Assembly (NCBI RefSeq): GCF_014652875.1
Contig: NZ_BMZQ01000002.1
Coordinates: 1,361,501 to 1,425,500 of the forward strand
Length of the DNA: 64,000 nucleotides
Direction of reading: 5' to 3'
Origin: Tianweitania populi
Lineage (GTDB): Bacteria > Pseudomonadota > Alphaproteobacteria > Rhizobiales > Rhizobiaceae
A program made the translations under genes and the position numbers. Position 1 is the stretch's first letter, and each line of letters begins with the position of its first letter. This document shows positions 16,419-47,963 of this stretch, one piece after another. The notes beneath the pieces are model-generated. The model was not told the origin of the DNA and did not search any database. It saw nothing but the letters and a program-made list of their open reading frames with translations.

Positions 16419-16438
16419 ATATTAGCTATGCTGCAAAC

Positions 16439-18376: not shown

Positions 18377-18390
18377 ACGTCCGTGGGCCA

Positions 18391-18428
18391 CACCTCCCCA
18401 ACGAGGTGCCGACTATCTGGAAGGATAG
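18391..18428 (+). ncRNA. serC-type cis-regulatory RNA leader
   Basis: Two adjacent hairpins lie just before serC. The first is CACCTC (18391-18396) with GAGGTG (18403-18408) and loop CCCAAC. The second is CTATC (18413-18417) with GATAG (18424-18428), whose loop holds the Shine-Dalgarno GGAAGG (18419-18424). The serC ATG is 6 bases beyond. A serC leader whose final stem overlaps the ribosome-binding site is an established alphaproteobacterial motif upstream of serC-serA. The match here is by structure and position; I could not run a covariance search. Confidence 0.65.
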
Positions 18429-18434
18429 ACCACG

Positions 18435-28944: not shown

Positions 28945-29967
28945 TCAAGCCTTGGTTTCCACGGCTTGCACCACCGTGTTCACGGCGTTGGCATCGGCGT
29001 CCGCGTGGGCTGCGTAGCGCTGTGCCAGAAGGGCGCAGATGAAGAGCTGGATCTGGTGGAAGATCATCAGCGGCAGCACGACCAGGGATACGGACTGCCC
29101 GGCAAAGAGGATGCCGGCCATGGGCACGCCGGTGGCGAGGCTTTTCTTTGAGCCGCAGAACAGGATCGTGATCTGGTCTTCGCGGCTGAAGCCGAGCAGC
29201 TTTCCTAGCAATGCCGTGATCGCGAGGATCAAAGCGAGCAGAATGCAGGCGGTTGCCAGGATCCAGATGAGGTCGGTGCCGTCCACATGCGACCACACGC
29301 CCGCCACCATGCCTTCGCTGAAGGCAGCATAAACCACCAGCAGGATCGCGCCGCGATCGGTGAATTGGGTCATGCGCGCATGACGCTGAAGGAACTTGCC
29401 GATCAGCGGGCGGCACAGCTGGCCGATCGCGAAGGGCAGCAGGATCTGCAGCGCGATGTCGCCGACCGAGCTCAGATCGAAGCTTTCGCCACCCTGGGCG
29501 CCGATGATCAGGCCGACCAGAAGCGGTGTCACAAAGACGCCGGCTAGGTTCGACAGGCTGGCGCTGGTGATGGCGGCTGCGACATTGCCTCTGGCGATCG
29601 AGGTAAAGGCGATCGAGGACTGCACGGTCGACGGCAGCAGGCACAGAAACAAGATGCCGAGCACCAGATCATCCGGCAGATGACCGCGTAAGACATGCGA
29701 CGCGATCAGCCCGAGAACCGGGAAGATGCCGTAGGTGCAGATGAAGACAAGCGATTGCAGCCGCCAATGCAGCAAGCCGGACGCAACGGCTGATGGTGAC
29801 AGCTTGGCGCCATACAGAAAGAACAGCAGCGCGATGGCCGCGGTCACGACCCAGTCGAGCACGTCGGCTGCGTCGCCGCGCGCGGGCAGCAAGGCTGCCA
29901 GGAGCATCGCCCCCAGAAGCATGATCAGGAACGGGTCGAGAAGGATCTTGCGGAGGAGCATTTGCAT
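28945..29967 (-). CDS. BASS-family (SBF-like, YfeH-type) transporter
   Basis: The 340-residue protein has about ten membrane helices. It carries features of the bile acid:sodium symporter-like group: FLYGAKLSPSAV, the LPSTVQSSIAFTSIARGN crossover helix (~110-127) and the second crossover GSKKSLATGVPMA (~275-287). These resemble the SBF-like YfeH branch. The substrate in bacteria is unclear; organic anions or arsenical compounds are possible. It begins downstream of the tRNA on the opposite strand, 23 bases from it. Confidence 0.85.
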   Translation of the reverse strand: MQMLLRKILLDPFLIMLLGAMLLAALLPARGDAADVLDWVVTAAIALLFFLYGAKLSPSAVASGLLHWRLQSLVFICTYGIFPVLGLIASHVLRGHLPDDLVLGILFLCLLPSTVQSSIAFTSIARGNVAAAITSASLSNLAGVFVTPLLVGLIIGAQGGESFDLSSVGDIALQILLPFAIGQLCRPLIGKFLQRHARMTQFTDRGAILLVVYAAFSEGMVAGVWSHVDGTDLIWILATACILLALILAITALLGKLLGFSREDQITILFCGSKKSLATGVPMAGILFAGQSVSLVVLPLMIFHQIQLFICALLAQRYAAHADADANAVNTVVQAVETKA

Positions 29968-45233: not shown

Positions 45234-45258
45234 GGAACCAAGTGCCGGCCGTGTTGTT
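45234..45258 (+). promoter_or_regulatory. EcfG-type promoter of a predicted small RNA
   Basis: GGAAC (45234-45238), 16 bases, TGTT (45255-45258). TGTT instead of CGTT is also seen in the phyR promoter here. The predicted transcription start, ~45265, lies just before the first hairpin of the candidate RNA. Confidence 0.6.
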
Positions 45259-45264
45259 ATTGAT

Positions 45265-45388
45265 GCGAACACGGCGCGCCGCACCCCTATCGCCCCCACC
45301 CCAGCGGCAGTCGTGTCTTTACCGAGAACGATCCCCCCTCGGTTCTCGGTACTAAAAAAGCCGGCCCTTTGAGGCCGGCTTTCTTTTT
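45265..45388 (+). ncRNA. Candidate EcfG-dependent small RNA with C-rich loops
   Basis: The 439-base interval 45055-45493 has no credible gene but holds this structured element. Hairpin 1: ACACG (45269-45273) with CGTGT (45312-45316), then GCCGC (45278-45282) with GCGGC (45304-45308), capped by a 21-base loop (45283-45303) with three C runs. Hairpin 2: TACCGAGAAC (45320-45329) with GTTCTCGGTA (45342-45351), perfect 10 bp, loop with six consecutive C. Terminator: AAAGCCGGCC (45357-45366) with GGCCGGCTTT (45373-45382), then TTTCTTTTT. C-rich loops suit pairing with Shine-Dalgarno sequences. The layout resembles the sigma-T-controlled RNA GsrN of Caulobacter, but I claim no homology. Confidence 0.6.
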
Positions 45389-45444
45389 GTCCGAATGCAT
45401 GACTTTCTGTTAATCCCTTCCAGCAGTTGAAGCTTGGAGGAGGC

Positions 45445-45479
45445 AACAAAAAAGGGCGACCGAGGCGCCCTTTTTTGTT
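45445..45479 (-). terminator. Terminator after the DUF1328-like gene
   Basis: A perfect 14-bp inverted repeat: AACAAAAAAGGGCG (45445-45458) with CGCCCTTTTTTGTT (45466-45479). It lies 15 bases beyond the stop of the minus-strand gene and could act on both strands. Confidence 0.88.
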
Positions 45480-45493
45480 GCTGGTCCGATATG

Positions 45494-45658
45494 TCAACGC
45501 ACCCGGCGCATCACACCCGTAAACAGCGAAATCACAACAAACGCGCACAGCATCATAACCAGAACCTGCGCCATGCCGATCGAAGTTGCAGTGACGCCCA
45601 CGCTCAAAGCGCCGGCGATTGCGGCAACTACAGCAGATACGAGAAACCAATAGAGCAT
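45494..45658 (-). CDS. DUF1328-like 54-residue membrane protein
   Basis: A short gene: MLYWFLVSAVVAAIAGALSV, followed by a second hydrophobic stretch (GMAQVLVMMLCAFVVISLF) and the basic end TGVMRRVR. Two membrane helices and the MLYW start match the DUF1328 (YtjA) family of very small inner-membrane proteins. AGGAG lies 8 bases before the ATG. An exact EcfG-type promoter is 26-50 bases upstream and a strong terminator is 15 bases downstream, so it forms a complete monocistronic stress gene. Confidence 0.85.
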   Translation of the reverse strand: MLYWFLVSAVVAAIAGALSVGVTATSIGMAQVLVMMLCAFVVISLFTGVMRRVR

Positions 45659-45683
45659 CGTCTTCACTCCTTACGCCGAGGGA

Positions 45684-45708
45684 AACGTGCTTGGGAGGCA
45701 GCCGTTCC
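45684..45708 (-). promoter_or_regulatory. EcfG-type promoter of the DUF1328-like gene
   Basis: On the minus strand GGAAC (complement of 45704-45708), 16 bases, CGTT (complement of 45684-45687): an exact consensus match. Confidence 0.78.
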
Positions 45709-45810
45709 CGATGTTGAATCTTAATGAAGCACAACCAGAAGGTTGTGGTTTCATCAATGATCTTCAACACCGTATTAAGGCTGTCTCCCTGAACGATGCC
45801 TGAACGTTTT

Positions 45811-46602
45811 TCAGGCAGCCGCTTTTTGCTGGTCGAAAAACAGCGCCTGGCTGATCAAGGCCTTCACCATGTCCGGGTTGAACGGCTTGGTCACGAGGAA
45901 GGCAGGCTCAGGACGCTCGCCGGTCAGCAGGCGCTCAGGGAAGGCGGTGATGAAGATCACCGGCACGGCGCGGTCGGCCAAGATTTCGTTGACCGCATCG
46001 ATGCCCGAGCTGCCATCAGCAAGCTGAATGTCAGCCAAAATCATCTTTGGCTGGGTACGATGGAACAGTTCGGTGGCTTCCGAATGGGTGCGCGCAACGC
46101 CGACCACGCGATGGCCGAGGCTTTCCACCATTTCTTCGATGTCCATGGCGATCAGCGGCTCGTCCTCGATCACCATGATCTCGGTGGCAACCTGACGCGA
46201 GATTTCGTTGCTGGCTTCCGTGAGAAGGTCGCCGAACTCAGCGGTCGGAACGTCCAGGATTTCGGCAGCTTCGGCGTCGGTGAAACCTTCAACGGCCACG
46301 AGCAGGAAAGCCTGGCGGGGAAGCGGTGCCAAAGCGGAGAGGTTCGCGACCGCGCTTCTTTCCCAGGCAGAGGCCGGGGATTCTTCGGGAACGCGTACGG
46401 CGATCGAGGTGAAAAGCTTGGCGAAGATCTTGTAAAGCGCGATCTTGTCGCTGCTCGCCTTCGGAAAAATGCTGACATCCGCGATAATCGCTTCGAGCAT
46501 TGCGGCAACGAGCGCGTCACCGCTGGTCTGAGAACCGGACACTGCCCGCGAAAAGCGCCGCAGATACGGCAGGTGCGGAGCAATCGACGAGGAAAGGCTC
46601 AT
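45811..46602 (-). CDS. phyR: PhyR, anti-anti-sigma response regulator of the general stress response
   Basis: PhyR, when phosphorylated, sequesters NepR and so frees EcfG. The 263-residue protein has an N-terminal sigma-like domain (~1-135: LPYLRRFSRAVSGSQTSGDALV, then LLVAVEGFTDAEAAEIL) and a C-terminal receiver with D191 (MILADIQLADG), T219 (FITAF) and K239 (VTKPF). I use ATG 46602; an in-frame codon 12 residues upstream is less likely. It is divergent from nepR-ecfG, and both carry EcfG-type promoters. Confidence 0.96.
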   Translation of the reverse strand: MSLSSSIAPHLPYLRRFSRAVSGSQTSGDALVAAMLEAIIADVSIFPKASSDKIALYKIFAKLFTSIAVRVPEESPASAWERSAVANLSALAPLPRQAFLLVAVEGFTDAEAAEILDVPTAEFGDLLTEASNEISRQVATEIMVIEDEPLIAMDIEEMVESLGHRVVGVARTHSEATELFHRTQPKMILADIQLADGSSGIDAVNEILADRAVPVIFITAFPERLLTGERPEPAFLVTKPFNPDMVKALISQALFFDQQKAAA

Positions 46603-46657
46603 TCTGTGATTATCCCTGGAATAAGAAGTCGTGCCCATTAAAGTGGGTCGAGGCTAT

Positions 46658-46689: not shown

Positions 46690-46714
46690 GGAACATTTTT
46701 GCCATAAGCCCGTT
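46690..46714 (+). promoter_or_regulatory. EcfG-type promoter of nepR-ecfG
   Basis: GGAAC (46690-46694), 16 bases, CGTT (46711-46714), an exact match lying 94 bases before nepR. Its -35 is only 8 bases from the -35 of the divergent phyR promoter. Confidence 0.8.
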
Positions 46715-46807
46715 TAGAGCCGCTTGCGTGTGCCCGGATTAGACCGGGCTGTCTACAAGCGCAGGGGCTGCACACCTTACCTATCGATTTTAGAAGGCGG
46801 TTTTGGA

Positions 46808-47005
46808 ATGAGCGACGAGGAAAATACCGGGCAGCACGAAGCTGCGCGGCAGGGTGGGCATCTTGATCCGCTTGGAACCAATACCGAAATAGGACGGAAG
46901 CTGAAGCAGTTCTACGACGGGATCATTTCCGATCAGGTCCCTGATCGTTTCATGGATCTGTTGAGCAAGCTGGAAGCAGCGGATTCCGGTCGGAAAAAGG
47001 ACTGA
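46808..47005 (+). CDS. nepR: NepR anti-sigma factor
   Basis: NepR binds EcfG and blocks its access to RNA polymerase until PhyR removes it. I use ATG 46808, giving 65 residues with a disordered N terminus. The family core is IGRKLKQFYDGIISDQVPDRF, then MDLLSKLE (residues ~28-56), which form the two helices that wrap the sigma factor. ecfG starts 2 bases after its stop, giving coupled synthesis. Confidence 0.94.
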   Translation: MSDEENTGQHEAARQGGHLDPLGTNTEIGRKLKQFYDGIISDQVPDRFMDLLSKLEAADSGRKKD

Positions 47006-47007
47006 CG

Positions 47008-47559
47008 ATGTCGGACAGCCTGCAGTTCAAGCAAGACTTGCTTGGCGCGATTCCCAGCCTGCGTGCGTTCGGCGTTTCGCTGACGCAAAATTCCGACAAG
47101 GCCGACGATCTTGTTCAGGAAACGCTGGTCAAGGCGTGGGACAAGCAGTCGAGCTTCCAGCCCGGTACAAATCTCAAGGCCTGGTTGTTCACCATCCTTC
47201 GCAACGAGTTCTATTCGCAGATGCGCAAGCGCGGCCGCGAAGTGCAGGACAGCGATGGCGCGATGACGGCCCGGCTAGCCATCCATCCTTCCCAGCACGG
47301 CTCGCTCGACCTGGAAGATTTCCGCACCGCCCTCGAGAAGTTGCCCGAGGACCAGCGCGAAGCCATCATCTTGATCGGCGCATCGGGCTTTTCCTATGAG
47401 GAAGCTGCCGAAATCTGCAATTGCGCGGTCGGCACCATCAAGAGCCGCGTCAGCCGTGCCCGCACCCGTTTGCAGGACATCCTGAAGGTGTCGGGCGAGG
47501 CGGATTACGGCCCGGACGCCATTGCTGCCCATGTGATGGGATCAGGCGCCGGCGTCTAA
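47008..47559 (+). CDS. ecfG: EcfG, general stress response sigma factor
   Basis: EcfG is the ECF sigma factor that directs the alphaproteobacterial general stress response at GGAAC-N16/17-CGTT promoters. The 183-residue protein has region 2 (~10-75: LRAFGVSLTQNSDKADDLVQETLVKAW, NLKAWLFTILRNEFYSQMRK) and region 4 (~105-160: LEKLPEDQREAIILIGASGFSYEEAAEI, GTIKSRVSRAR). The short linker between the two regions is typical. It is regulated post-translationally by NepR/PhyR and transcriptionally by itself. Confidence 0.95.
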   Translation: MSDSLQFKQDLLGAIPSLRAFGVSLTQNSDKADDLVQETLVKAWDKQSSFQPGTNLKAWLFTILRNEFYSQMRKRGREVQDSDGAMTARLAIHPSQHGSLDLEDFRTALEKLPEDQREAIILIGASGFSYEEAAEICNCAVGTIKSRVSRARTRLQDILKVSGEADYGPDAIAAHVMGSGAGV

Positions 47560-47569
47560 CCTTTCGACG

Positions 47570-47593
47570 ACAGGCGCGGTTAGCCGCGCCTGT
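47570..47593. terminator. Hairpin between convergent ecfG and receiver gene, enclosing a stop codon
   Basis: ACAGGCGCGG (47570-47579) and CCGCGCCTGT (47584-47593) form a perfect 10-bp stem with loop TTAG. The loop holds the stop codon of the minus-strand gene, whose last residues are encoded in the stem. The T tract is weak. Confidence 0.5.
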
Positions 47594-47963
47594 TCCCCAG
47601 TGCGGCCTGCATGGCGGATACGAGGTGGTGGCTGGCATAAGGCTTCGTCACCACCGGTACATCGGGAAAAGCGCGAAACGTGTCTTCGTGCCGCGACAGG
47701 CCGGTCGCGAAGATAAACGGCAGGCCCCGGCTTTGCAGCCGTTCCGCCAGGGGCAGGGTGACGCCATCGCCGATCATGACATCCACGATGGCGATGTCGA
47801 AGCGGTGTTCATCCAAGACGGCATCATCGATTTCGGCGAGATCGCGAAAGGTTATAACCTCCGCGCACCCTTCGTCGTGGCAGATTTGCTCAACATCCAG
47901 CGCTATCAGAAATTCATCTTCGAGCAACATAACCCGAAGCCCTTCAAGGGCCCGATCTGCCAA
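47580..47963 (-). CDS. Single-domain response regulator, FATGUY-like
   Basis: The 127-residue protein is a receiver domain alone: acidic pocket E15/D16, phospho-accepting D61 (DIAIVDVMI), T87 and K107 (VTKPY). The segment PFIFATGLS resembles the PFxFATGY motif of the FATGUY subgroup, whose members (such as SdrG and MrrA) act as phosphorelay hubs to PhyR. The start is probably TTG at 47963 with GGAG 10 bases before it; ATG at codon 12 would remove the first strand. The position next to ecfG supports a stress-signalling role. Confidence 0.82.
   Translation of the reverse strand: MADRALEGLRVMLLEDEFLIALDVEQICHDEGCAEVITFRDLAEIDDAVLDEHRFDIAIVDVMIGDGVTLPLAERLQSRGLPFIFATGLSRHEDTFRAFPDVPVVTKPYASHHLVSAMQAALGNRRG

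Follow-up and report, generated by a model that had tools for sequence, protein, structure and literature searches.

Stress frees the general stress sigma factor EcfG from NepR via PhyR in an established pathway. GsrN, a small RNA of Caulobacter, was the subject of a 2018 study that is reportedly the work of Tien et al. In Rhizobium etli, the small RNA ReC64 was seen by Northern blot together with an extra larger band (PMC2881028, 2010) and was later described by Northern blot and 5' RACE, with reporter expression abolished in an ecfG1 mutant (PMC3892343, 2013). A further report described ReC64 as raised under salt and assigned it SigA and RpoH promoters by matrix, at odds with PMC3892343 (PMC4167512). 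The C-rich loop of GsrN acts on katG by base pairing, as compensatory mutations showed, with activation as the outcome, and for R. etli, S. meliloti, B. abortus, and A. radiobacter, section 14 of the same paper predicted GsrN-like RNAs that are located at the stress locus (PMC5869019, 2018). Candidates for these predictions were selected by the presence of an EcfG site, by transcription, and by proximity to phyR, with A. radiobacter added by BLASTn from R. etli (PMC5869019). RpoE2-dependent RNAs are also known in S. meliloti (PMC3616915, PMC6180224), and Bsr6 of Brucella abortus, one of the closest known RNAs, needs the general-stress sigma factor RpoE1 and has an RpoE1 box in its promoter (PMC12772402).

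We analyzed a stretch of 64,000 nucleotides from Tianweitania populi, referred to as the window. On the plus strand, an EcfG-type promoter motif, GGAAC-N16-TGTT, occupies positions 45234 to 45258, with GGAAC at 45234-45238, a 16-nt spacer, and TGTT at 45255-45258. The N16 spacing is the same as in the in-genome reference motif, GGAAC-N16-CGTT, that precedes nepR-ecfG (46690-46714, plus strand), which bears out the EcfG-type promoter proposed in an earlier note on this DNA. The fold, covariation, and relatives beside phyR together support a small RNA gene of about 124 nt (45265-45388, plus strand), whose start near 45265 we infer from the promoter position. Hairpin 1 (45269-45316) is predicted to combine a 7-bp stem (45269-45275 with 45310-45316) and a 5-bp stem (45278-45282 with 45304-45308) below a 21-nt C-rich loop (45283-45303, ACCCCUAUCGCCCCCACCCCA) that has C runs of 4, 5, and 4. 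Hairpin 2 (45320-45351) has a perfect 10-bp stem (45320-45329 with 45342-45351) and a 12-nt loop, GAUCCCCCCUCG, with six C, and the intrinsic terminator (45357-45388) consists of a hairpin at 45357-45382 and a T tail. The predicted fold of 45265-45388 reached -52.6 kcal/mol (z = -6.15), and none of 200 dinucleotide shuffles folded as well. This computed fold recovered all three elements that the earlier note had described: the C-loop hairpin in two parts, the second C-loop hairpin with its perfect 10-bp stem, and the terminator. We thus confirmed a promoter motif followed by a folded C-loop RNA at this locus. The stretch had also been called gene-free, which is correct insofar as no reading frame is kept among relatives but not literally, as mechanical ORFs cross the RNA.

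The RNA gene is part of the stress locus. phyR lies at 45811-46638 on the minus strand (Pfam PhyR_sigma2, PhyR_sigma-like, and Response_reg), and nepR and ecfG lie at 46772-47559 on the plus strand (Pfam NepR, Sigma70_r2, and Sigma70_r4_2). From the 3' end of the RNA, the distance to phyR (45811), on the opposite strand, is about 0.42 kb and that to nepR (46772) is about 1.4 kb, so that of the 0.6 to 1.4 kb given previously the nepR end stands and the phyR end does not. The gap between the RNA and phyR in the window is occupied by a 57-aa ORF without a Pfam match (45494-45667, minus strand). A second hairpin with a T run (45441-45479) faces this ORF and could end its transcript, in which case the RNA gene and the ORF would converge without overlap. 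A Gly-zipper gene (Pfam) adjoins the RNA in the window, as an ORF similar by eye does at locus L015, and a single-domain response regulator (47580-47963, Pfam Response_reg) directly follows ecfG on the opposite strand. In three relatives (L015, L081, and L164), a histidine-kinase-like ORF, presumably a kinase from its HWE/HisKA_2-type motif, is located between phyR and the RNA. ReC64 is likewise found downstream of tcrY in R. etli, whereas the window has no kinase-like gene between the RNA and phyR (45388-45811).

Other comparisons with ReC64 and GsrN indicated both shared and divergent features. ReC64 resembles the window RNA in its EcfG consensus promoter and its position at the phyR locus (phyR-tcrY) of a related bacterium (PMC3892343, PMC2881028). 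ReC64 is reported as a trans-encoded RNA detected in stationary phase, whereas trans action of the window RNA is only proposed, and its length is given as 88 nt in contrast to the approximately 124 nt predicted here. The window RNA is linked to ReC64 by place, promoter, and family, and R. etli ReC64 is probably among its orthologs. GsrN is described as controlled by the EcfG-type sigma factor SigT and as exposing a C-rich 5' loop and a second loop; the window RNA has an EcfG-type promoter motif and is predicted to expose two such loops. However, gsrN of C. crescentus is located away from the GSR locus, whereas the window RNA is found at the stress locus. The GsrN-like predictions share the exposed C-rich 5' loop with the window RNA, but the word covariance is absent from the main text of that paper and section 14 does not name Tianweitania (PMC5869019). 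An EcfG-type promoter ahead of a C-rich two-loop RNA at the stress-sigma locus, as described in the earlier note, is supported, and so is its analogy to GsrN as far as architecture goes.

Orthologs were present beside phyR in both of the other Tianweitania genomes examined, T. aestuarii and T. sediminis, although the -10 element of T. sediminis is CTTT and fails the strict EcfG motif rule. Across the three species, the C-rich loops are nearly constant, with the hairpin 1 loop core AUCGCCCCC found in all three, whereas the stems vary with compensatory changes. Both sides had changed in 5 of the 10 pairs of hairpin 2, in none of the 10 terminator pairs, and in 3 of the 12 pairs of hairpin 1, where the 3' arm of T. 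sediminis is slightly misaligned in the alignment used (A1). In total, both-side changes affected 8/32 pairs among the 3 sequences, compared to 0-2 in slid controls. Across genera, the stems could not be brought into register by plain MAFFT, and we used structural alignments from the covariance model, which lean towards structure. In these model-derived alignments, which are fitted to structure and contain related rows that are not independent, both-side changes affected 25/32 pairs with 9 sequences and 27/32 with 19, compared to 5-13 and 14-19, respectively, in slid controls. Conservation of the stems by covariation, set as a test beforehand, was thus observed. These data also bear on whether a short ORF is translated from the transcript, making the RNA an mRNA or a dual-function RNA. 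Each of the three Tianweitania species keeps one frame open over the length of the RNA, but among 19 sequences the distance from one loop core to the other is spread over every frame (6, 5, and 8 sequences), the compensatory changes fit RNA stems, and no shared start codon was seen. We rejected a coding function on the loop-core spacing and regard it as very improbable.

We then analyzed phyR loci in other genera. A protein search detected phyR in 103 of 126 family genomes, and from these places we sampled 59 loci outside the genus plus the T. sediminis locus, followed by 40 more loci; 14 listed phyR places were left out, and some genomes contributed two loci. With phyR set to the minus strand, our strict rule demanded an EcfG motif and, in the 110 nt after it, C runs of 4 or longer that add up to 10 C or more. 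At the 59 loci outside the genus, 15 of 33 motifs on the left side and plus strand of phyR satisfied this rule, compared to 1 of 313 elsewhere. Other thresholds gave counts of 16 vs 8 (8 C), 13 vs 1 (12 C), and 9 vs 0 (14 C) for the same side vs elsewhere, and the unchanged 10-C rule gave 8/30 vs 2/154 at the 40 further loci. No such gene was detected by the strict rule at 44/59 and 32/40 phyR loci outside the genus, or by a looser rule at 43/59. A scan of named genomes for the promoter plus the loop-1 and loop-2 cores returned 18 records, two from Tianweitania and 16 from others, including Rhizobium giardinii, R. herbae, Pararhizobium, and Xaviernesmea; R. etli was absent from the 18. phyR was present in 14 of the 18 stretches; because the query itself contained the loop cores, this co-occurrence is the separate finding and the cores are not. 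In some members of the bacterial family, relatives of the RNA thus adjoin these stress-control genes as well.

Because compensatory changes within the genus are accompanied by recurrence in other genera with side and strand relative to phyR unchanged, we do not consider the RNA a product of chance. A fortuitous mix, in which a GGAAC match and a terminator happen to meet C-rich intergenic DNA, would draw on the ease with which GC-rich intergenic DNA folds and on the tendency of the terminator by itself to match other places. The EcfG motif combined with CCCCC was also not enriched in the own genome (2 matches, the RNA gene and one other, vs 6 in the reversed control). The covariation, the placement controls, and the promoter test described below already disfavor such a mix, which we hold to be highly unlikely.

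We searched 62 sources with a covariance model built from the three Tianweitania sequences (R1). The seven top-ranking matches outside the genus (L015, L020, L032, L067, L027, L028, and L040; E values of 2.6e-11 to 2.6e-4) all sit at places predicted from promoters. The next matches were on the reverse strand in the window and in L002 (about 5e-4), followed by the predicted place in L060 (7e-4) and a weak tail. Weak model matches in the window occurred at 16430, 33424, and similar places; the match at 16430 was rejected as a relative, as it is weak and has the look of a terminator that follows a different gene. A nine-sequence model (R2) run on 394 family genomes produced a match at E <= 0.01 in 154 of them, many of the weak ones appearing to be terminator driven. 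Since these models do not include the promoter, an upstream EcfG motif serves as a test of their matches. The strict motif was found just upstream of 16 of 21 untrained matches (L084-L104), compared to 7 of 1,554 background windows, although some of the tested genomes belong to genera that were also used in training, and some of the promoters hardly differ. By class, the motif preceded 7 of the 10 RNAs with two loops and 9 of the 10 with a single hairpin, with L095, which lacks the motif, being of uncertain class. Among 20 further weaker R2 matches, hand-picked from a longer list, 6 satisfied the preset motif rule, and in four more the motif appeared by eye to lie slightly inside the match. 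An R2 search of a draw of 385 class genomes, which bears on homology with Caulobacteraceae GsrN, revealed no clear or credible relative beyond the family; eight weak matches fell outside it, the best with an E value of 2.4e-5, and none of the 8 had an EcfG motif. Rfam yielded no match at the gene in the window and at 15 relative loci, with weak hits far below the cut-off. Elsewhere in the window, at 18381-18433, Rfam placed a serC leader above the gathering score.

When folded singly, 35 candidate RNAs had a mean z of -5.3, with 33 below -2. Their C runs had a mean unpaired probability of 0.92 vs 0.65 in shuffles and were more open in 34 of the 35, although these candidates had been picked partly for C runs. 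Loops that are kept and open on changing stems would be fit seeds for pairing with G-rich leaders, as for GsrN. The sequence itself shows the promoter motif, a folded RNA with its terminator, stems that covary, open loops that are conserved, and a conserved place, whereas transcription, EcfG dependence in this organism, a base-pairing function, targets, and a sign of regulation are inferred. The locus very probably encodes a genuine regulatory small RNA that has two C-rich loops and is driven by the general stress sigma factor. We further consider it likely that this is a trans-acting general-stress RNA that uses its C-rich loops as seeds and has its orthologs in the EcfG-type RNAs linked to phyR in Rhizobiaceae. 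EcfG freed under stress would start transcription near 45265, the transcript would end at the terminator near 45388, and the stable stems would hold both loops open to pair with G-rich stretches of mRNA leaders, altering the translation or stability of several targets.

Our target searches did not identify such an mRNA. In contrast to GsrN, pairing of the window RNA with katG was not supported by prediction in the katG leaders of the three Tianweitania species, two of which have no G run of at least 4 and the third of which has one inside the coding start. The fractions of mononucleotide shuffles pairing with katG as well were 0.62, 0.66, and 0.64 for loop 1 and 0.81, 0.30, and 0.07 for loop 2, the value of 0.07 being from the window's own genome. 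The loop-1 complement GGGGGYGRTRG was not enriched in the three genomes (13, 9, and 21 occurrences vs 11, 9, and 18 in the reversed control, with 13 vs 11 in the own genome), and a duplex scan of 65 window ORFs gave no convincing target. One uninterrupted match near the start of the ORF at 28945-29967 is inside the coding frame, looks like chance, and was set aside. Target prediction with the C loops, as suggested previously, was therefore unproductive, and the proposal that these loops mask Shine-Dalgarno sequences was not supported as stated. GsrN itself activates katG, and the katG leaders of the genus offer no support for pairing. As the target search was weak, its failure says little.

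The lack of a target in the katG, loop-1 complement, and window ORF analyses, together with loops that are conserved while stems vary, could also suggest an EcfG-driven RNA whose C-rich loops bind and titrate a protein of the cold-shock or Hfq-like type. We consider titration unlikely, as the C-rich loop of GsrN works on katG by base pairing (PMC5869019) and the search that failed was a weak one. Less likely still, the RNA would feed back on the stress circuit or serve as a sponge within it, acting on the phyR or nepR-ecfG mRNA or on another small RNA. Such a role would suit an RNA encoded within the regulatory locus behind the same promoter type as nepR-ecfG, but complementarity to the region around the ecfG start was not out of the ordinary (the phyR and nepR starts were poorly scored, with overlapping ORFs kept). 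A trans-acting RNA with the C-rich loops as seeds thus remains our preferred reading.

Our searches of the open literature found no description of the RNA in Tianweitania. The earlier note had called the RNA undescribed, which applies to its sequence and to Rfam but not to its kind, as ReC64 (PMC3892343) and the GsrN-like predictions (PMC5869019) had been published. It is best filed as a further case of the published ReC64/GsrN-like type that is new in sequence and to Rfam. Outside Caulobacteraceae, the proposal of GsrN-like RNAs drew on transcription data together with the site of the promoter and the position. For such an RNA in Rhizobiaceae, the covariance model, covariation, and promoter test provide an evolutionary footing, a family absent from Rfam, and conserved loops that can be mutated. 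The post-transcriptional stress response of Alphaproteobacteria thereby becomes testable in soil bacteria and symbionts.

The newest part of our findings is the occurrence of a two-loop RNA beside phyR and a single-loop EcfG-type RNA elsewhere. It is possible, although somewhat short of probable, that Rhizobiaceae have a fast-evolving superfamily of EcfG-driven RNAs with open C-rich loops on changing stems, in which a phyR-linked two-loop form and an unlinked single-hairpin form together make up a general post-transcriptional stress arm with the loops as a shared anti-G-tract code.

The second class consists of RNAs of about 85 nt with one C-rich-loop hairpin, often on a GACGGG...CCCGUC-like stem, and a terminator behind an EcfG motif; our literature search found no paper on it. 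The strict motif was present at 9 of the 10 loci L093 and L096-L104 (matches at base 1501) and also at L200, L204, L205, L213, and L215, 5 of the 20 weaker loci. By coordinates, the single-hairpin RNA is located away from phyR in genomes G048, G055, G068, G103, and G121, and no two-loop RNA was found at the phyR loci of these five genomes, all of which were checked. Genome G100 has a phyR-linked two-loop RNA and seemingly also a single-hairpin C-loop RNA elsewhere (L198, C19:115659-115784), which does not have the strict EcfG motif but is preceded by GGAACC.
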